Of a DNA stretch of 64,000 nt, positions 44,660 to 56,213 are shown in pieces. Origin of the DNA: Auricularia sp. M13 (lineage: Eukaryota; Basidiomycota; Agaricomycetes; Auriculariales; Auriculariaceae); the NCBI GenBank assembly GCA_037042915.1, contig CM073193.1, forward strand, positions 2,108,001 through 2,172,000, written 5' to 3'. A program made the translations under genes and the position numbers. Within the stretch, counting starts at the first letter, position 1; each line of letters opens with the position of its first letter. A model generated the notes under the pieces. It was not told the origin of the DNA and did no database searches. It saw nothing but the letters and a program-made list of their open reading frames with translations.

Positions 44660-45895
44660 GAACGACCAAAAAACTCACCTGGCTCGGAAACCGCGTCCCG
44701 TACGGCACCTCCGGCCACCTATCCGTGAACTTGCCGCCCGCGCGCGGCTTGGGCTTGGGCTTGGGCTTCGCGGCCGGCGCCACCGGGCTCGCGAGCTCCT
44801 CGACCTCGTCGTCGTCCTCGAGCGTCTCGCCCGCCCCGAGCGACGGCGAGCGAGCGACCGCGACCGGCGCGGGTTTCGGCGCGACCTTGCGCGGCGCCTG
44901 AGTCGTCTTCGCGCTCTCGACCTGCAAAATAAGCGCACCTTAGCAACGTCCCGCAATCGCGGGAGCTCGACCCATACCTCCATGGCCTTCCGCCTCTTCG
45001 GCGGCGACTCGGTCTCCTTCGCGTCCTTCGCCGGCGCCTTCGTGCTCGTGGTCGGCGCCTTCGCCGGCACCCCAGGCAATCTGTTTGCGACCCCTTAGGC
45101 CTCTAAGCGAGACCACTGATGGCTGACCCAAGGGGTCACACCAAACAATGTCCCTTTGCACAGCCACCCCTCGCGGTCACCTCCAGCAGCACTGGCCAAT
45201 GCATCACTGCGCTGAAAGCGATCTGGTGCGTTCCCAGCGTGTTCAGATGGTCCATTGGTATTGCCCCATCACAAATAGCATCTATAATCGGTTCCCTAGG
45301 TGCCTCTGAGCATGCTGCACACTGGTAGCAGCAGCAGCAAATGCAGCAGCAGCAGCAGTAATGCCGCTTGTCGTTCTGGTTGTGCGCAGCAGTCTAGAAT
45401 GTAATTTAGTGATGTGAGACACTATTCCATGCACAGAGCGGCCGCCGCATTGAGCTACACATTGAGTGCATTGTTTTTGCGGTCGCCGCGAAAATCAGCA
45501 CAGCCACAGCGTCGCATCACAGCCGGCAGCATTGAATGCAGCACAGCGGAACTGCGAGCAGCTTGGTGCACTAGTTGTACATTAAGGAGGTCTACATGTG
45601 TTATCCCATTGCTATAGTGCAAAGAAAGAAGTGTCCTGAGCTGTTCCTTACAGGCTGTTGCCCGTTGGCAGCAGCAGCAATGGCGCAGTAGCACCAGCAG
45701 CGACAGAGAGTGCTCTGGTCGCGCGCCATGCTGGAAAACACAACTCTCCATTGCTAGACACTATTCCACATCAGGGGGACGTGCTATACTATGCAGTATA
45801 TCGATGGCATTAATTTCGCGGCGACCGCGAAATTTGCACAGCCACATCTCGCGGTCACCGCCAGCAGCGGCAAGCACTGCGTTACAGCACTGCAT

Positions 45896-46374
45896 GTTGC
45901 GGTCTTCGTCGAGTCCCTCCTCCCCCGCTGTTTCATTTCGCCGTCCCGTGGCCCTCGCACCTCGGCCGGGCGCCCAAACTCCTTGCGCCCGGCCCCGCGG
46001 CCCTTTCGTCGGCGCGTCCAAGCGGTCTCTCCGCTCGGCGAGCACCTCGGTCTCTTCCCAGGAGAATGGTAATATGACGGGATGTTTCTGGTTTGGTTGG
46101 GCTCTATTTATCCCGGGTTTTCTGTCTCGCCGACGACGCCCCGGCGGTCTCTTTCGGCCTGATCTGTGGCGCCCGCGTGACAACCGGTCGGTGGCGCAAT
46201 TGGTCCGCGGGGCCCCTCGGCCTTGCTTCCGTAGTATATATATATGGGCCGTCGCCCCTCTTGTACCTTAGGTTTGGTCTGGTCTATCATACCGCTTATC
46301 CGCGCCTCCCTCTCCCCACTCATCCCTTCTCCTCGGGCGTCGTCTCGGAGAGTGATATAGCAGTCACCGTGACA
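45896..46374 (+). repeat. 5' LTR of LTR-3
   Basis: Contains a TATATATATAT run (about 46235-46245) and, 23 bases later, TAGGTTTGGTCT (46269-46280). This is the exact complement of AGACCAAACCTA, which starts two bases after the LTR at 46377: a self-priming signature. Confidence 0.9.
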
Positions 46375-46957
46375 TAAGACCAAACCTACCCTCCCTCCCG
46401 ACGCTCGAGATCCCCATACCCCTTACTCACCACCCTTCCAATCCGGGCGAACCGTTCGGTCGGCGTTGCTCGGTCCAGGAAGGAATCCGACCCCTCGGAC
46501 CGGCTAGGAGACCCCTCGCGTCGACGAGGACCCGTCGCGACCGCCGCGCCCACTCATCGGCCCACCAGGACCCTGCAGGACCCACCCTCCGGACGCCGAG
46601 CCTTGCCCACTGGCCTTCGGGTCAGGCACTCAGCCAACGAGGACCCCTCCAGACCCATACGGTCGTCAAATCCGAAAGCTCATTCCATCACCGGCTCCTG
46701 ATCTCTCCTCTTCATCAGAGCCAGGTCATCCGCGGCGAGACCACCCCCCACAAGCCCTACTCGCCGAATGCGCCGCTGCGCGTCCCCACCCCTCGGTCAA
46801 CCTCTAAACCTCCCACGGCCGACCCCTCTCTCCAGAACCTCACCCTCCGCGCATCCCGAGAGCAAGTTCCCCCCCCGTGGTGCGCGCGGCGCATTCACAT
46901 CATCTTCCTCGGATCGTGACCCCCATCATCCCCACGCATCAACGCTTACGACACATA

Positions 46958-47818
46958 CAGTGACGGAAAAAATAATTTGTACACCCGATTTTTGCCACTT
47001 TTGCAGACACAACTGTGAGAGCCTCAGACTACCAATCCTCCTGGTATTCACGTATGTTGGTGGCAAGCACCTAAGCTTTGATTGTGTGCTGTGATCATGT
47101 GAATTGGACGGGTGCTGATCGAGATATAAGCACAAGTCCATGAAACCTATATAAGTGCGAATTAGCCCCTCATTCCTGAACAAAGGCTGATATTTCTGAG
47201 ATCCCTTTCCTATCACTAAATGAGATGGTAGGCTATAGGAATATGCCATGGGAATTGGAGTCTGAGGCCAGTCTGTTTGCTGGCGTCCCAACAAACTCGG
47301 CTCTCAGTACACCCCAAACTTCATCTCATCGCTGATGTCCAGGCAAATAAACCCAGGTCTCCCTGGAATAGCTACATATAGTTATTTATACAAGGAACAT
47401 AACTCATAAATATGGGTTATCAAAGTTATCTGGAGGATTCTCAGCGATGAGATGAAGTTTGGGGTGTACTGAGAGCCGAGTTTGTTGGGACGCCAGCAAA
47501 CAGACTGGCCTCAGACTCCAATTCCCATGGCATATTCCTATAGCCTACCATCTCATTTAGTGATAGGAAAGGGATCTCAGAAAGATCAGCCTTTGTTCAG
47601 GAATGAGGGGCTAATTCGCACTTATATAGGTTTCATGGACTTGTGCTTATATCTCGATCAGCACCCGTCCAATTCACATGATCACAGCACACAATCAAAG
47701 CTTAGGTGCTTGCCACCAACATACGTGAATACCAGGAGGATTGGTAGTCTGAGGCTCTCACAGTTGTGTCTGCAAAAGTGGCAAAAATCGGGTGTACAAA
47801 TTATTTTTTCCGTCACTG
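46958..47818. mobile_element. 861-bp palindromic TA-flanked element, copy 1 (Tc1/mariner-type ends)
   Basis: Two perfect-looking inverted arms of 378 bp (46958-47335 and 47441-47818) flank a 105-bp loop. Ends are CAGTGACGGAAAAAATAATT, flanked by TA on both sides (46956-46957 and 47819-47820), as in Tc1/mariner-type transposition. The arms give a frame of about 110 codons on each strand, but no transposase catalytic motif is recognised. It is inserted in LTR-3. Confidence 0.9.
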
Positions 47819-47910
47819 TACACCATATAATCCGGATCGGCCGCCAGACCGACGCCTCTTTCCCCCCTTTTTCCCCGACACGCCCCTTTGTTCGGACCGA
47901 AAGCTCACAA

Positions 47911-48703
47911 AATGTCCCAGTACGACGAGACCATAGTTAACCCTCAATACATACCGGCGGCAGTCCTGGACCACCGCGTACACCGAGGAGTTCCTCAATA
48001 TCTCGTCCAATGGATGGGCTTTCCCCCCGAGGACGCTAGCTGGCAACTGGCCGCCGACCTGGACGGAACCGGACTCGTGGAGGAGTACCACGCCGAACCA
48101 CCGGAGCCAAATGAGGACCAAGGCGCCGCACAGGACCTGGACCAGGATGCGGACATGGACCTCGGCGAGGACTTTGGCGACGGACCCCAAGAGCTGTTCG
48201 GCGAATCACCCATCAGCACCGGCGAGTCACCTCTCGCCGCCGACGAGTCGTCTGAGCTTGAGGACGCGCGCCCGGCCACACCTCCGCTGGGGCTCATCCC
48301 CCTTCGCGCTCGTATCCGGTCGCCGGACCCGGACGACACCCGGCTCGACATCGCCATGCTCGTGGCCCCTCCCCAACCTTTCTTCTGGATGCTAGACCGC
48401 TTCACTCACTACGGCCGCTTCACTGCCCCGAGACATCTCCCGCTCGATATCTCGCGTTACTGGGTACTCCCGACCGTCGTGCGCAATGACCGAGGCCGAC
48501 GGGCTCGCACCGAGCTAGTGGTCTTTTCGTTCCCACCTCGCCTCGGCCCTCATCTCATCACGTCGCCTACGACGGAACGAGCCCTCCAGGTCGTTCGGCT
48601 TACGGCGTGCCTTGTCTGGGACGTCCGCGAATATCGTGCCACGTACGCCGACGACGCCCTGGTCCTGCGGATCGCGTCCCCCGGCCCGGCCCACCGTCTT
48701 TGA
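47911..48703 (+). CDS. Chromodomain protein encoded by LTR-3
   Basis: A 263-codon frame from the ATG at 47911. Residues about 12-55 form a chromodomain: IPAAVLDHRVHRG, then VPQYLVQWMGFPPEDASWQL, with the aromatic positions Y, W and W that read methylated lysine. An acidic linker (DQDADMDLGEDFGDG) and a second part with no recognised fold follow. In chromoviruses this domain is normally the tail of the integrase; here it stands alone with no integrase in the element. The frame is open to its stop. Confidence 0.75.
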
Positions 48704-48995
48704 ACGCTCCGGACGGTTGCCCCTGCCTTGTACAGCAGCACGCTTTGCGAAGCCAAACCGCCCTTCTTTGTCGATATCTACTGGCGTACAGGTGACGCCA
48801 CCCGTCGTTCCCTCCCCTCGGCGACCGTGCCCAGAATCGGACCCTACCTCGGTCGGACGCCGCCGGTCGGATGCTCTCCACAGTCACGGTCCCGGTCGTT
48901 TCTCATACCCCGTATTTATGCTCGTCTTTCCGCCTCTCTATTTACATATTTTACGAGCCTCCACACCACTACCCGAATCATACCCGGACACGGTC

Positions 48996-49781
48996 TTACT
49001 CCTCCATGGGTTGGCCCGCATCGACCGACTTCTCCCCTATCACGGACGCATCCCGACCCTCGGACCGTTGGACGCGTGGCAGGAATCCGGACCCGGACCC
49101 AGACGCCTCCAGCGACGCAAAGCTGGGTATCGGACGCACATCCCCCGGCACTACCACGCCAAGAAGGGCCAGGTCGGCGCCGAAGTCAGCAAGCACGCCG
49201 ACAGGACCCGCCGGCGCCTCCGCCTCCACGCCCGCGGCGCCAGGGGAAGTCGGCGCGTCGGTGGGCGACCTCCTCGCCTCGTCCTCCACCGCTCGGCCGT
49301 CATTGGAGTCGGTATCGCGCTCGCTCCCGCCCGGCGACACGAGGCGCACCGTCTTATGGGCACGCCGGTCATCGACGAGCTCCTGCGTCCACTTGCGAAG
49401 GTCGCGCCTCAACGCCGAGACGGACAGCTGGAACCCCTGGACGATGCGGTCGCCCAGGACCTCGAGGTCGGCCATGGTGGCTGTCCCCGGCGACCGAAGC
49501 CTTCGGCGTGTGCGCGACCGCGCCACGGACGCGCCGACGGTGTCCACCACGTCGTCCTGGTCCGGATCGTCCCCGTCGCCGCCGTCCACGTCAGCGTCCT
49601 GTCGCGCCCTCTTGCGCGATGTGCCCGACCGGCCGACACTGTGAGAACACCCCACGCGGGTCCGGTGGCAACGAGCACAGGCAGTCGCCGACCCGGACAC
49701 TTGTCGAAAACACGGCCGGCCAGAGCGCTCGCACTGCTCACAAGGCTGGACCCGGACGAAGGATGTCAGCGCAGGATACAC
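48996..49781 (-). CDS. LTR-3 antisense frame with six-cysteine motif
   Basis: Antisense frame of about 260 codons. CEQCERSGRPC and then CARCHRTRVGC give C-x2-C-x6-C-x10-C-x2-C-x6-C, followed by a basic patch (GTSRKRARQ) and an acidic run. The motif lies near 49645-49745. A further antisense frame (49819-50256) with coiled-coil character lies just upstream of it. Coding status is supported by the match in layout with LTR-1 and LTR-2. Confidence 0.55.
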   Translation of the reverse strand: MYPALTSFVRVQPCEQCERSGRPCFRQVSGSATACARCHRTRVGCSHSVGRSGTSRKRARQDADVDGGDGDDPDQDDVVDTVGASVARSRTRRRLRSPGTATMADLEVLGDRIVQGFQLSVSALRRDLRKWTQELVDDRRAHKTVRLVSPGGSERDTDSNDGRAVEDEARRSPTDAPTSPGAAGVEAEAPAGPVGVLADFGADLALLGVVVPGDVRPIPSFASLEASGSGSGFLPRVQRSEGRDASVIGEKSVDAGQPMEE

Positions 49782-49818
49782 CCCGGAGCAAGAGGACCTT
49801 TGACCAAGACGTACCGTG

Positions 49819-50256
49819 TTAAAAGGAGGCCCGACCGCGTCCTTCTCCTCGTCGCCGGTCCCTCGCGCGCCGACGTCCGAAGGCCGCCGACCCAGACGCG
49901 ACCACTCCCGATGAGCCCTTGCCCTTCGTGGTCGAGGAGGTCGTTCCCGTGCGGCGAACCCCTTCCACCTTCGGCACTACGGGGAGCGAGGCTGCTGTCA
50001 TGCCGAGGAGAGACGCCGCCGTCTCCAGATTGCGGGTCGCGGCGTTGCGTCGGCGCACCTCGGCGTCAATGGCCTCCAACCGCTGGCCCGCAGACGCAAG
50101 CACCGTACGCGCCTTCTCCTCCTCCGCGTCCGCGGCGTAGTTCCCGAAGTCCAGTTGGCGCTGGATGGAGGCATGCAGCGTGAACACCCGCTCCCTGAGG
50201 TCCCGAAGTTCGCCGAGAGGCTTCGCAGTCAGTCCGTCGGCGGCGGTGGGCGTCAT
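49819..50256 (-). CDS. LTR-3 antisense frame, coiled-coil type
   Basis: Starts with an ATG at 50256 near the 3' LTR and reads LGELRDLRERVFTLHASIQ, then RLEAIDAEVRRRNAATRNLE, a helical, charged stretch. It lies immediately upstream of the six-cysteine frame on the same strand. Coiled-coil-like antisense frames also sit near the 3' LTR of LTR-1 (55890-56213) and LTR-2 (59730-59936). Confidence 0.5.
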   Translation of the reverse strand: MTPTAADGLTAKPLGELRDLRERVFTLHASIQRQLDFGNYAADAEEEKARTVLASAGQRLEAIDAEVRRRNAATRNLETAASLLGMTAASLPVVPKVEGVRRTGTTSSTTKGKGSSGVVASGSAAFGRRRARDRRRGEGRGRASF

Positions 50257-50481
50257 AGGATATCGGACGGTGACGGGAAGCGGGGAGGCGAAGAGCGAGA
50301 AGTACCGCGGTTCGTGTACGGCGGCAGCCGAGCCTTTCGCGGCATCTGACGCTTAGAGTTTGATCCCGCGACGGATGGAGCTCGGCCCGGCCACGCTATG
50401 GTCCGTCTCCCCACGCCCGATCTAACCCGCACCTCCCCTGGCCATTCCCCCTCGGTCACTGGACGGCTAGAAGGGGGGTTA

Positions 50482-50961
50482 TGTTGCGGTCTTCGTCGAG
50501 TCCCTCCTCCCCCGCTGTTTCATTTCGCCGTCCCGTGGCCCTCGCACCTCGGCCGGGCGCCCAAACTCCTTGCGCCCGGCCCCGCGGCCCTTTCGTCGGC
50601 GCGTCCAAGCGGTCTCTCCGCTCGGCGAGCACCTCGGTCTCTTCCCAGGAGAATGGTAATATGACGGGATGTTTCTGGTTTGGTTGGGCTCTATTTATCC
50701 CGGGTTTTCTGTCTCGCCGACGACGCCCCGGCGGTCTCTTTCGGCCTGATCTGTGGCGCCCGCGTGACAACCGGTCGGTGGCGCAATTGGTCCGCGGGGC
50801 CCCTCGGCCTTGCTTCCGTAGTATATATATATGGGCCGTCGCCCCTCTTGTACCTTAGGTTTGGTCTGGTCTATCATACCGCTTATCCGCGCCTCCCTCT
50901 CCCCACTCATCCCTTCTCCTCGGGCGTCGTCTCGGAGAGTGATATAGCAGTCACCGTGACA
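50482..50961 (+). repeat. 3' LTR of LTR-3
   Basis: Almost identical to the 5' copy at 45896-46374. Preceded by a polypurine tract and followed by the CTGCA target duplication. Confidence 0.9.
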
Positions 50962-52421
50962 CTGCAAATGGTTTGGCACACCTGTAGCAAGCTTAGGGTG
51001 TCTCCCGCCATGATATAAGCTCATCGCATTGTACATAACTGTGTTTGTAGCACTGATGGATAGGACTGCTCGCCGTCAACAGCAGCAGCAACACTGCAGC
51101 AGCACTGGCAAACCTCAAATGGTGTACTGATCACGCGCCAGGCTTGGAAACACATTTCCCCATTGCCAGACATTATCCCTTGCTATTCCAAGGTGTTGGG
51201 ATGTGCTGCACGCCAATGACGTCGATTTAGCGGTCGCCGCGAAACCTGCACAGCCACAATTCGTGGTCACCGCCAGCAGCAGTGAGCACTATGTAGTGGC
51301 ACTGCAAGCAACCTGGCGCATTGGTAGCAGGCTTGGGGTGTCTTCTAGCATTGTACAAACTCAAAATCTAATACACAGCAGTGTCCTCAACACTGCTAGA
51401 CAGGCTGCTCATTGCCTGCAGCAGCAGCGAGGGTGCAGTGACAGCGGCAACACGTTCTGACTGTGCAGTATGCTTGGGAATGCTATTCCGCACCGCCAGA
51501 CACTGTTTTGAGCAAGGGAGAGTGTCCTGGGTGAGCTGAACACCAAAGGTATTGATTTATCGGTCGCCGCGAAATCTGCACAGCCACCTTCCCGCAGTTG
51601 CCTGCAGCACCATGAACACCTTGTTGCAGCATCAGGAACATTGCAGCGCATGGCCAGTAGGTTTGTACAGTCTAAAAGGGACATCCCCTGCGAAGGAATT
51701 GAGTTAAATGATGTCCTGGATGTCTCTGAGTGTGGTGCTCACTGTCTGCAACAGCAGCACCACTGCCGACGACAGTGGCGAGTGCAGACACTGCAATAAC
51801 ACTTTATTGCACTCATTTATGACCTTTGAAACCTTCCTCTGCACAAAATACACCTAGGGCAAGTCCCTGAGCATGTTGCAGGCTCAAAGACCAGTTTATC
51901 GGCCGCCGAGAGATTCTGCACAGCCACTGATCTGCATCAATCAATCCGGACTTAAGGCCGCTGTTGCCCTAACCTAAGTGCACTTGGGGCATGGGAATTT
52001 CGAGGAAATAGGACTGGATTATGATGCATTACATTAGGCCAGAGTCAATGGCACATTTCCAAGTGCCTGCAGTGCCTGGAAGGTGTGCAGTGAGCCAAAT
52101 ATACCTCCAGAATGCGAGCATAATAGCAGCTCAGTCCCTGCTCCAATCCATTGGGTATGATAGTGTAAAACACTTGGTTTTACGTCTAGATCATACTCCC
52201 CAAGGCCCATACAAATGCATCAAGAATTGGGAGCTGGGTGCAAGTGCACATTTCCTGATGGGGCAAGCATTTGCACCCAGCTCTGTAGACATCTCCAATG
52301 CGCATGGGACTTTTGGATTACCTTCTCTGAGTATATCTAAGCATATTCCGCCCATGTGCCTGGTGGGATATAACATTGGAAGCATCCCAGAAGCGAAGCA
52401 ACTGGAGCTCAGGGTAGCATA

Positions 52422-53282
52422 CAGTGACGGAAAAAATAATTTGTACACCCGATTTTTGCCACTTTTGCAGACACAACTGTGAGAGCCTCAGACTACCAAT
52501 CCTCCTGGTATTCACGTATGTTGGTGGCAAGCACCTAAGCTTTGATTGTGTGCTGTGATCATGTGAATTGGACGGGTGCTGATCGAGATATAAGCACAAG
52601 TCCATGAAACCTATATAAGTGCGAATTAGCCCCTCATTCCTGAACAAAGGCTGATCTTTCTGAGATCCCTTTCCTATCACTAAATGAGATGGTAGGCTAT
52701 AGGAATATGCCATGGGAATTGGAGTCTGAGGCCAGTCTGTTTGCTGGCGTCCCAACAAACTCGGCTCTCAGTACACCCCAAACTTCATCTCATCGCTGAG
52801 AATCCTCCAGATAACTTTGATAACCCATATTTATGAGTTATGTTCCTTGTATAAATAACTATATGTAGCTATTCCAGGGAGACCTGGGTTTATTTGCCTG
52901 GACATCAGCGATGAGATGAAGTTTGGGGTGTACTGAGAGCCGAGTTTGTTGGGACGCCAGCAAACAGACTGGCCTCAGACTCCAATTCCCATGGCATATT
53001 CCTATAGCCTACCATCTCATTTAGTGATAGGAAAGGGATCTCAGAAATATCAGCCTTTGTTCAGGAATGAGGGGCTAATTCGCACTTATATAGGTTTCAT
53101 GGACTTGTGCTTATATCTCGATCAGCACCCGTCCAATTCACATGATCACAGCACACAATCAAAGCTTAGGTGCTTGCCACCAACATACGTGAATACCAGG
53201 AGGATTGGTAGTCTGAGGCTCTCACAGTTGTGTCTGCAAAAGTGGCAAAAATCGGGTGTACAAATTATTTTTTCCGTCACTG
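52422..53282. mobile_element. 861-bp palindromic TA-flanked element, copy 2
   Basis: Same length, arms and ends as copy 1. Flanked by TA at 52420-52421 and 53283-53284. The central loop is in the opposite orientation to copy 1, as expected for a palindrome inserted the other way round. It lies in the left arm of the large palindromic element; the matching position in the right arm (about 53596) has no insertion. Confidence 0.9.
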
Positions 53283-53511
53283 TAAACTCCCATGAATTCC
53301 CCACTATCCCTCGCATTCCAGCTCGGAATCTCAATGCGGACCATCTCAGGGGTACTCTATGCATGATTTCCAACAGTTTCCTGGTGGATCAATCCTCATT
53401 CAATCGAAAGATACATGTTCACTCATGTTTGCTGAATGTTCACTAAGATTGCATAGCCAACCTACCTGACCTTCCAGCTCGGAGTTTTCCGAGTGGATTT
53501 TAGCTGGTATA

Positions 53512-55881
53512 CATGCATAGAGTACCCCTGAGATGGTCCGCATTGAGATTCCGAGCTGGAATGCGAGGGATAGTGGGGAATTCATGGGAGTTTATGCTAC
53601 CCTGAGCTCCAGTTGCTTCGCTTCTGGGATGCTTCCATTGTTATATCCCACCAGGCACATGGGCGGACTATGCTTAGATATACTCAGAGAAGGTAATCCC
53701 AAAGTCCCATGCGCATTGGAGATGTCTACAGAGCTGGGTGCAAATGCTTGCCCCATCAGGAAATGTGCACTTGCACCCAGCTCCCATTTCTGAATGCATT
53801 TGTAAGGGCTGTTAGGAGTACGATCTAGACGTAAAACAAAGTGGTTTTCACTATCACACCCAACAGATTTGAGCAAGGATTGAGGTGCTATTGTGCTCGC
53901 ATTCTGCAGGTATATCTGGCTCACTGCACACCTTCCAGGCACTCCAAGCACCTGGAATTGAGCCATTGACTCTGTCCTAGTGTAATGAATCGTAAGCCAG
54001 TCTTATTCCCTCGAAATTCCCATGCCCCAAATGCACTTAGGTTAGGGCAAAAGCGGCCTTAAGTCCGGATTGATCGATGCAGATCAGTGGCTGTGCAGAA
54101 TCTCTCGGCGGCCGATAAACTGGCCCTTGAGCCTGCAACATGCTCAGGGACTTGTCCTAGGAGCCCTTTGTACAGGGGAAGGTTTAAAGGGTCATAAATG
54201 ATTACAATAGTGTGTTATTGCAGTGTCTGCGCTCATTGCTGCCGCCAGAAGTGGTGCAACTGTTGCAGACAGTGAGCACCACACTCAGGGACATGCAGAA
54301 GGTCATTCAACTTGATTCTTTCACAGGGGATGTCCATTTTAGACTGTACAAACCTACTGGCCCTGCACTGCAACGTTCCTGATGCTCCAACAAGGCGTTC
54401 ATGCTGCTGCAGGCAACTGCGGGAATGTGGCTGTGCATTTCTCGCGGCGACCGATAAATCGACAGCTTTGGTGTTCAGCTCGCCCAGGACACTCTCCCTT
54501 GCTCGGAACAGTGTCTGGCGGTGCGGAATAGCATTCCCAAGCATACTGCACAGTCAGAACAACAATGAGCGTTGCTGCTGTCACTGCACCCTCGCTGCTG
54601 CTGCAGGCAGTGAGCAGCCTGTCTAGCAATGTTGGGAACACTGCTTTCTATTAGCTTTAGTTTTTACAATACTAGAAGACACCCCAAGCCTGCTGCCAAT
54701 GCGCCGGATTGCTTGCAGTGCCGCTACATAGTGCTCACTGCTGCTGGCGGTGACCGCGAACCTGTGGCTGTGCAGATTTCGCGGCGACCGCGAAATCGAC
54801 ATCATTGACGTACAGCACAGCACAGCACCTTGGGATAGCAAGGGATACTGTCTAGCAATAAGAAGATGTGTTTCTGAGCCTGGCGCACAATCAGTACATC
54901 ATTTGAGGTTTGCCAGTGCTGCTGCAGTGTTGCTGCTGCTGTTGACGGCGAGCAGTCCTATCCATCAGTGCTACAAACACAGTTATGTACAATGCGATGA
55001 GCTTATATCATGGCGGGAGACACCCTAAGCTTGCTACAGGTGTGCCAAACCATTTGCAGTGCTGTAACGCAGTGCTTGCCGCTGCTGGCGGTGACCGCGA
55101 GATGTGGCTGTGCAAATTTCGCGGTCGCCGCGAAATTAATGCCATCGATATACTGCATAGTATAGCACGTCCCCCTGATGTGGAATAGTGTCTAGCAATG
55201 GAGAGTTGTGTTTTCCAGCATGGCGCGCGACCAGAGCACTCTCTGTCGCTGCTGGTGCTACTGCGCCATTGCTGCTGCTGCCAACGGGCAACAGCCTGTA
55301 AGGAACAGCTCAGGACACTTCTTTCTTTGCACTATAGCAATGGGATAACACATGTAGACCTCCTTAATGTACAACTAGTGCACCAAGCTGCTCGCAGTTC
55401 CGCTGTGCTGCATTCAATGCTGCCGGCTGTGATGCGACGCTGTGGCTGTGCTGATTTTCGCGGCGACCGCAAAAACAATGCACTCAATGTGTAGCTCAAT
55501 GCGGCGGCCGCTCTGTGCATGGAATAGTGTCTCACATCACTAAATTACATTCTAGACTGCTGCGCACAACCAGAACGACAAGCGGCATTACTGCTGCTGC
55601 TGCTGCATTTGCTGCTGCTGCTACCAGTGTGCAGCATGCTCAGAGGCACCTAGGGAACCGATTATAGATGCTATTTGTGATGGGGCAATACCAATGGACC
55701 ATCTGAACACGCTGGGAACGCACCAGATCGCTTTCAGCGCAGTGATGCATTGGCCAGTGCTGCTGGAGGTGACCGCGAGGGGTGGCTGTGCAAAGGGACA
55801 TTGTTTGGTGTGACCCCTTGGGTCAGCCATCAGTGGTCTCGCTTAGAGGCCTAAGGGGTCGCAAACAGATTGCCTGGGGTG
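53512..55881 (-). repeat. Right arm of the palindromic element (uninterrupted)
   Basis: 2,370 bp, reverse complement of the left arm. Unit landmarks (GTGGCTGTGCA next to a CGCGG palindrome) lie near 54090, 54430, 54770, 55110, 55450 and 55780. It contains no insertion and so shows the arm in its original form. Confidence 0.88.
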
Positions 55882-55889
55882 TTCGCCGG

Positions 55890-56213
55890 CGACGCCTGGC
55901 TCTTCGTCGCCTTGGCGCCCGCGTCCGCCGCGATCCTGGCCACGCGCTCGGCCAGCATCCCGAAGCGTCGCTGCGCCGCCAGGCGCAGCTCGGCCTTCGC
56001 CTGGCGCCTGCGCGCGCTGAACGCCTCGATCGCGTCGAGGTCCTCTTCGTCGACGGCCTCTTGCTGCAGGCCGCCGAGCGTCCGTTTTGCGTCCTCGTGC
56101 GCTGCGATCAGCGCCTCCATCGTCGGGTCGTCCTCGAGCGACCTCATGACGGCGCCGACGGTCTTGCGGTCGTACGCGGCGGCGACGTCCTCGAGCGATT
56201 CGTATCGCGGCAT
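55890..56213 (-). CDS. LTR-1 antisense frame, coiled-coil type
   Basis: Starts with an ATG at 56213, close to the 3' LTR of LTR-1, and runs to the border of the palindromic insertion. It reads MPRYESLEDVAAAYDRKTV and later LDAIEAFSARRRQAKAELRL, a long charged helix. It appears to be the near-3'-LTR counterpart of similar frames in LTR-2 and LTR-3. Confidence 0.5.

Follow-up and report, generated by a model that had tools for sequence, protein, structure and literature searches.

KDZ (Kyakuja-Dileera-Zisupton) elements are described in two papers as large gene-carrying transposons (PMC12730594, PMC12810828), of which KDZ1 of Cryptococcus neoformans is ~11 kb long with 241-bp terminal inverted repeats (TIRs) and 8-bp target-site duplications (TSDs). 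According to PMC12730594, Zisupton makes 8-bp TSDs, Kyakuja has a 7-bp TSD, CA..TG ends and no TIRs, and EnSpm/CACTA elements have CAC..GTG ends and a 3-bp TSD. Foldback-like elements of Drosophila include Galileo of the P superfamily, whose long TIRs hold several transposase-binding sites (PMC3688188); Tetris of Drosophila virilis, a non-coding foldback with ~220-bp repeats in its long TIRs and 8–10 bp TSDs (PMC4079207); and the non-autonomous FB elements (FoldBack4), with inverted repeats around a loop (PMC4022104). Here, a palindromic element was analysed in the genome of Auricularia sp. M13, within a window of 64,000 bp on contig CM073193.1 (G000:C1:2108001-2172000), where it occupies positions 45068-55881 and is called win; other elements are named by contig and position (C7, C8, C2, C5, C4, b2693, b2664, s4403, m5110, L023 and L024). 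The genome searched comprised 52.1 Mb in 14 contigs, and all genome-wide copy counts are lower bounds. We regard win, with considerable confidence, as a non-autonomous, cut-and-paste KDZ element of foldback form that is probably mobilised in trans and whose arms have been homogenised by conversion.

The element shares with Zisupton and KDZ1-3 its 8-bp TSD, its inverted ends, and the KDZ and CxC1 domains of partners with matched tips, but is unlike KDZ1-3 in that no gene was found in it and that it is nearly all inverted arm, with arms of ~2.4 kb against TIRs of 139–241 bp (PMC12730594, PMC12810828). Galileo is alike in its foldback-like long TIRs with internal repeats, which in win may also comprise extra binding sites, and unlike in belonging to the P superfamily with a THAP domain and in that its binding has been shown, whereas that of win is deduced from sequence. 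By this analogy, win is best read as an element that would work in the manner of Galileo, as a foldback with multiplied transposase sites, but belongs to KDZ, and the idea of multiplied binding sites in long TIRs would so be extended to another superfamily. Tetris is similar in form and in the possible homogenisation of its repeats, but its description gives no transposase source and suggests Mutator, whereas win has KDZ partners and units that are degenerate rather than near-identical. FB elements have the foldback form and the lack of autonomy in common with win, and are set apart, to judge from their description, by the KDZ partners found here. No description of a palindromic or foldback KDZ element was found in the open-access literature, in a search that left aside Repbase, Dfam and most subscription journals. 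The proposal of a first-pass annotation that this might be an undescribed family of no known kind was nevertheless not sustained, because tips, TSD and KDZ partners place the element as a non-autonomous KDZ derivative. To KDZ elements known as gene carriers, palindromic parasites with matched partners add candidate recognition sites, namely a CG box and the tip.

Palindrome structure and sister copies

With an inserted long terminal repeat (LTR) retrotransposon and a miniature inverted-repeat transposable element (MITE) removed, win is a single inverted structure of 4,879 bp, with arms of 2,363 and 2,370 bp that are identical at 2,230 of 2,361 aligned bases (94.45%) around a centre of 146 bp, and its outer arms (45068-45894/55055-55881) form an inverted match of 827 nt at 100%. 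TTCGCCGG stands on either side as an 8-bp TSD, in agreement with the first-pass annotation, which had described a near-perfect ~4.9-kb palindrome with ~2.4-kb arms, this centre and an 8-bp target duplication. Two sister copies were observed, at C7:2876949-2881838 (4,890 bp, arms 99.2% identical) and C8:3319494-3324384 (4,891 bp, arms 96.8% identical), each with its own 8-bp TSD and without the inserts of win, indicating that the whole structure is a mobile element. Palindromes are generally prone to assembly error, and the earlier annotation had left room for an artefact; this explanation, like an ordinary segmental inverted duplication, is extremely improbable, as the sister copies are uninterrupted, the three loci, each on a different contig, have a common centre and differing flanks and TSDs, and a related empty site exists. 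At that site, in L023 (C10), the joined flanks of win match over 431 bp at 100% with one TTCGCCGG; they also align to an insert in the arm of m5110, a palindromic element treated below, with 95% identity across 602 bp, including 2 gap positions. For the open reading frame (ORF) interrupted by win, 69 genomic matches were counted, with pieces taken separately, several of them uninterrupted at 96–100%, and the repeated sequence holding it has 724-bp direct terminal repeats (99.7%) in m5110, indicating that the target sequence is LTR-retrotransposon-like.

The element was thought from the start to be gene-less, and this is consistent with the searches: no Pfam match above the cut-off was found in the scanned ORFs of L009 (4 of the 45 listed ORFs of at least 60 aa), no KDZ match fell within win, C7 or C8 in the genome profile search (best 150 of 163 candidates scored), and a Tsg_N match in a C7 ORF was weak, at 20.3 bits under a cut-off of 25. 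A protein-coding core is unsupported but possible: a 90-aa core ORF is free of in-frame stops in its full-length window match, but such stops interrupt it in one of the two arms of C8, in one of the two matches in each of L024 and s4403, and in L023. The long inverted arms, internal repeats and short loop place the element in the foldback structural class, and arms, units, sister copies and TSDs together support the early description of a foldback-like mobile element with repeat-built arms. MITEs are short non-autonomous elements, below ~1 kb, and this label does not suit a size of 4,879–4,891 bp.

Each of win, C7 and C8 carries 12 instances of the word TGCACAGCCAC (0–1 mismatch), which in the C7 left arm lie at positions 90, 430, 768, 1108, 1447 and 1788, 338–341 bp from one another; ~340 bp is about two nucleosome repeats. 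A CG-rich near-palindrome, such as TTTCGCGGTCGCCGCGAAA, adjoins five of the six words per arm and is lacking at the outermost, and each arm contains GCACAGCCA six times, whereas no 9-mer exceeded 2–3 occurrences in 20 shuffles. A unit comparison with weak gap penalties failed to separate units from shuffles and was replaced by a second one, in which units 1–4 were mutually far above 200 shuffles even with the box removed; unit 5 was clear against unit 4, barely above the shuffles against unit 1 and not above them against units 2 and 3, while unit 6 hardly exceeded them. Of the about six degenerate 335-bp units per arm first proposed, each marked by a CG palindrome, the number holds for the words, the size is ~340 bp, the relatedness is clear, partial and slight in the order just given, and the CG palindrome accompanies GCACAGCCAC at all except the outermost word. 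All 28 exact matches to CCGCGN6GCACAGCCAC in the genome listing belong to five palindromes, with six each in win, C7, C8 and s4403 and four in m5110; with 2 mismatches allowed, the motif had no advantage over the reversed control (187+195 vs 184+212), and only the exact matches were used.

Gene-bearing KDZ partners and the CG box

The exact 16-bp tip CACCCCAGGCAATCTG occurs 13 times, at both ends of win, C7, C8, C2, b2693 and b2664 and at one end at C1:2336096; the same search also gave CAGCCCAGGCAAACTG words. The three partners are C2 (C2:5047463-5064563, 17.1 kb), b2693 (C1:2693247-2709449) and b2664 (C1:2664111-2680306), the latter two of 16.2 kb, and their first 66 bp are identical to the win tip at 56–58 positions. 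The KDZ domain (PF18758) was found in scanned ORFs of C2, b2664, C5 and C4. For C2, a scan of 10 of the 29 listed ORFs (150 aa or longer) yielded KDZ (52.8 bits), CxC1 (32.6 bits) and Ulp1 C48 (37.1 bits); the scanned ORFs of b2664 gave KDZ (70.8 bits) and C48 (36.1 bits), and genome KDZ matches fall inside b2693. Genome-wide, 149 KDZ matches were obtained, with exons counted apart and the best 150 of 163 candidates scored. The sequences of b2664 and b2693 agree at 99.83% and their TSDs differ, indicating that the partner moved recently. An 8-bp TSD was observed in nine of 11 end-paired elements (win, C7, C8, s4403, m5110, C5, C2, b2693, b2664, C4, L023), a count that omits the single-ended C1:2336096 and C11:1387653 among the 20 places with matches.

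The palindromes thus combine an 8-bp TSD and ends held in common with KDZ-encoding elements, one of which carries CxC1 together with the Ulp1 protease and another the protease; Zisupton carries Ulp1. As win, C7 and C8 lack the transposase that their partners have, they are filed only as a non-autonomous KDZ derivative, and the check proposed at the outset, whether any gene-bearing element has these ends, came out positive. Kyakuja does not fit, given the 8-bp TSD and long inverted arms found here, and EnSpm/CACTA agrees in its CAC..GTG ends but not in its TSD. FB/MULE foldbacks have a MULE-type source and a 9-bp TSD, and were set aside on the 8-bp TSD and KDZ-bearing partners, no genome-wide MULE search having been made; no hAT family appeared among the scanned C2 ORFs, again with no genome-wide hAT search. 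A foldback of such another superfamily (FB/MULE-like or hAT-like), with the 8-bp duplication as its sole KDZ likeness, could draw on the fact that foldback layout and 8-bp TSDs are not peculiar to KDZ, and that Tetris, with TSDs in this range, was suggested as Mutator by its authors (PMC4079207). It is very unlikely here, as the identical tip stands on both ends of KDZ-bearing elements and the scanned C2 ORFs yielded KDZ, CxC1 and C48 above the cut-off and no hAT or MULE.

A parallel pairing was observed in a second palindromic family (B), comprising s4403 (3,499 bp) and m5110 (~3.73 kb with an LTR retrotransposon removed), as the tips of the KDZ-bearing C5:3016988-3026079 are identical to those of s4403 at 15–16 of 16 positions and to those of class A (win, C7, C8) at 13–14.

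The box GCGGYCGCCGC (at most 1 mismatch) occurs within 400 bp of the ends 6 times in C2, 5 in b2693, 5 in b2664 and 12 in C5, where shuffles averaged 0.12, 0.07, 0.10 and 0.33 (maximum 1–2), with the reservation, which tells against the KDZ reading, that a near-palindromic box may be scored once per strand with a shift of a few bases, in real ends and shuffles alike. Its variant CGGTCGCCG was found in class A 6 times in C7, 8 in C8, 4 in the win right arm and 8 each at the ends of C2, b2664 and b2693, and in class B not in s4403 or m5110 and once in C5, where CGGCCGCCG numbers 11, 12 and 18, respectively, so that the box variant follows the tip class in part. As the box recurs at ~340-bp intervals along the arms and clusters at the ends of four partners, the arms probably are multiplied transposase-recognition sites, in line with the early suggestion that the unit palindromes resemble transposase sites, and the box is a candidate recognition site of the partner transposase. 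The KDZ transposase of the same-tip elements C2, b2664 and b2693 would recognise the tip and the repeated boxes, excise the palindrome and reinsert it with an 8-bp duplication, and the arms, as an extended subterminal box array, may help the palindrome compete for transposase.

The observed/expected CpG ratio is 0.56–0.58 in the palindrome arms, 1.13–1.20 in C2, b2664 and C5, and 0.98 in C4 with 0.44 in its TIR. In the C7 arm, 24 of 89 CpGs sit in five 23-bp boxes, and this retention of CpGs in otherwise CpG-poor arms suggests constraint, short of demonstrating the methylation sensing that the first-pass annotation had raised as a possibility. Long near-perfect inverted repeats can yield double-stranded RNA, and the palindrome might act mainly as RNA, with hairpins or small RNAs silencing same-tip KDZ elements, or might itself be a silencing target. 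The CpG-poor arms with their TpG/CpA excess fit past methylation; a main role of this kind is nonetheless unlikely, since only the end ~66 bp are common to C2, b2693 and b2664 (DNA search), which leaves little for silencing, and CpG transitions do not predominate among the private changes in the win arms (6/65 and 3/37).

Homogenisation of the arms

The six arms of win, C7 and C8 were aligned, and the two arms of win show 0 mismatches over the outer 982 columns and 131 over the inner 1,391 (log10 P about -30 on the assumption of independent sites). Among 308 two-state columns, 120 are copy-specific on both arms (68+32+20), 148 concern a single arm (65+37+20+18+5+3) and 40 neither. The two-arm copy-specific changes indicate either copying from arm to arm or a fresh inverted duplication in each copy, with older copies decayed and no conversion. 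The latter would also predict such sites, and the C7 arms are 99.2% alike while the copies differ by ~4–10%, as it would expect; it is nevertheless improbable, as the same centre is present in all three copies, the outer identity and ~9% inner mismatch of win (131/1,391) would not result from whole-arm duplication, and the win and C8 left arms have 15 bases in common against both right arms. At these 15 sites, 14 of them in columns 994–1159, the two left arms also differ from both C7 arms and the C8 right arm, the simplest explanation being that left and right arms had diverged before the dispersal of the copies, with the C7 left arm subsequently overwritten by sequence of the right-arm type.

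In family B (four arms, the s4403 left arm corresponding to the m5110 right), whole arms are 87% identical and tracts of s4403 97–99%. Under the favoured KDZ reading the arms would have been homogenised repeatedly, by tract-wise copying of one arm to the other, and the palindrome would consequently be older than its copies, and maintained; the molecular route may be gene conversion in place or post-excision repair. The copies offer a natural system in which arm homogenisation within a mobile palindrome can be read at individual sites. The flipped centre of C8 was rejected as a sign of arm recombination, as inserting the palindrome reversed looks identical, and was used for orienting the copy only. 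A conversion tract ending at the LTR insertion (column 827) was likewise rejected; the tract continues to column 982, so that no link to the insertion is claimed.

Several observations weigh against the reading of win as a trans-mobilised, homogenised KDZ element. No transposition event was observed, and C5 and L023 have no TSD. TGCACAGCCAC has 0 matches (at most 1 mismatch) in C2, b2693, b2664 and C5, so that the whole unit is present in none of these four gene-bearing elements, and C1:2336096 has unit 1 only, adjoining a KDZ fragment, with its right end not found. The box is also internal in the gene-bearing elements, at 1.15–1.37 per kb, and is lacking within 2 kb of the ends of C4, also KDZ and with 1.5-kb TIRs, so that it is no general KDZ site; the ends of b2664 and b2693 have more CGGCCGCCG (11 each) than CGGTCGCCG (8 each). 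In family B, old left/right differences number 123 sites in both copies against 40 two-arm copy-specific sites, with 120 single-arm sites, indicating that homogenisation there was only partial. C1:2336096 may derive from a gene-bearing parent, as a remnant or a chimera; at this locus (L011:1597-2250) the tip and first unit (88%, 335 aligned columns) directly adjoin a C-terminal KDZ part (56 bits).

Related classes and features of the window

A third class is represented by C4:2923622-2934880 (L026, L027), which is KDZ-bearing and 11,259 bp long and has TIRs of 1,497 bp (99.5%) and the duplication GGCTGTGA; its ends are found again on the short hybrid L023. The TIRs of C4 are rich in TGCAGGTGC/GCAATTGCA words, making it a gene-bearing KDZ element with repeat-built long TIRs of another sequence. 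In the hybrids L023:3457-6290 and L024:4268-6822, C4-class ends surround a core ~77% identical to the win inner arm and centre, the former without an 8-bp duplication. The ~70–115 bp beside the palindrome centre (L009:2715-2841; s4403/m5110 centres) are 72–79% alike between families A and B, and the outer arms past the first ~100 bp are unlike. Tentatively, and with less likelihood than its failure, a long-lived lineage of palindromic KDZ parasites may be envisaged, with three end-classes (A, win/C7/C8; B, s4403/m5110; C, the hybrids L023/L024), a related core near the centre, outer arms swapped or re-evolved to match KDZ partners, symmetry kept by arm conversion, and class-specific CG boxes in A and B (in A at ~340 bp spacing) as a multi-site KDZ recognition code.

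Table 1. Features of the palindromic element and its target in the window.
Feature	Position	Strand	Remarks
Target, 3' side of interrupted multi-copy ORF	44978..45067	-	
8-bp TSD TTCGCCGG, left copy	45060..45067		Single copy at related empty site in L023 (C10)
Left arm, outer part	45068..45894	+	Tip CACCCCAGGCAATCTG; GCACAGCCAC at 45158 without CG palindrome, at 45498 and 45836 with CG palindrome
Insert, LTR retrotransposon	45895..50961		LTRs identical over 481-bp match; 5-bp duplication CTGCA
Insert in insert, 865-bp foldback MITE	46956..47820		380-bp arms; identical to copy at 52420-53284
Left arm, middle part	50967..52421	+	Units 4-6; GCACAGCCAC at 51248, 51578, 51918
Insert, foldback MITE	52422..53282		TA duplication (865 bp counting duplication)
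Left arm, innermost part	53285..53365	+	
Non-palindromic centre, 146 bp	53366..53511		Orientation as in C7 copy, flipped in C8 copy
Right arm	53512..55881	-	Six TGCACAGCCAC (0-1 mismatch), minus strand, starts 54087, 54427, 54764, 55104, 55442, 55782; outermost (55782) without CG palindrome
8-bp TSD TTCGCCGG, right copy	55882..55889		
Target, 5' side of interrupted multi-copy ORF	55882..56213	-	Flank part of repeated LTR-retrotransposon-like sequence, inserted in m5110 too

Near the C8 copy, at a distance of 1.2 kb, a TET/JBP dioxygenase domain above the cut-off was observed (G000:C8:3325614-3326021), which may be chance; genome-wide, TET/JBP domains gave 19 matches, 4 above the cut-off, none of those listed falling in win, C7, C8, s4403 or m5110. 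Six GACCCCAGGCAAT words, all on the + strand, flank the C7 copy on both sides (G000:C7:2828981-2894810). The two MITE copies of the window, one inside the LTR retrotransposon and the other inside the palindrome, are 100% identical, indicating recent MITE activity.

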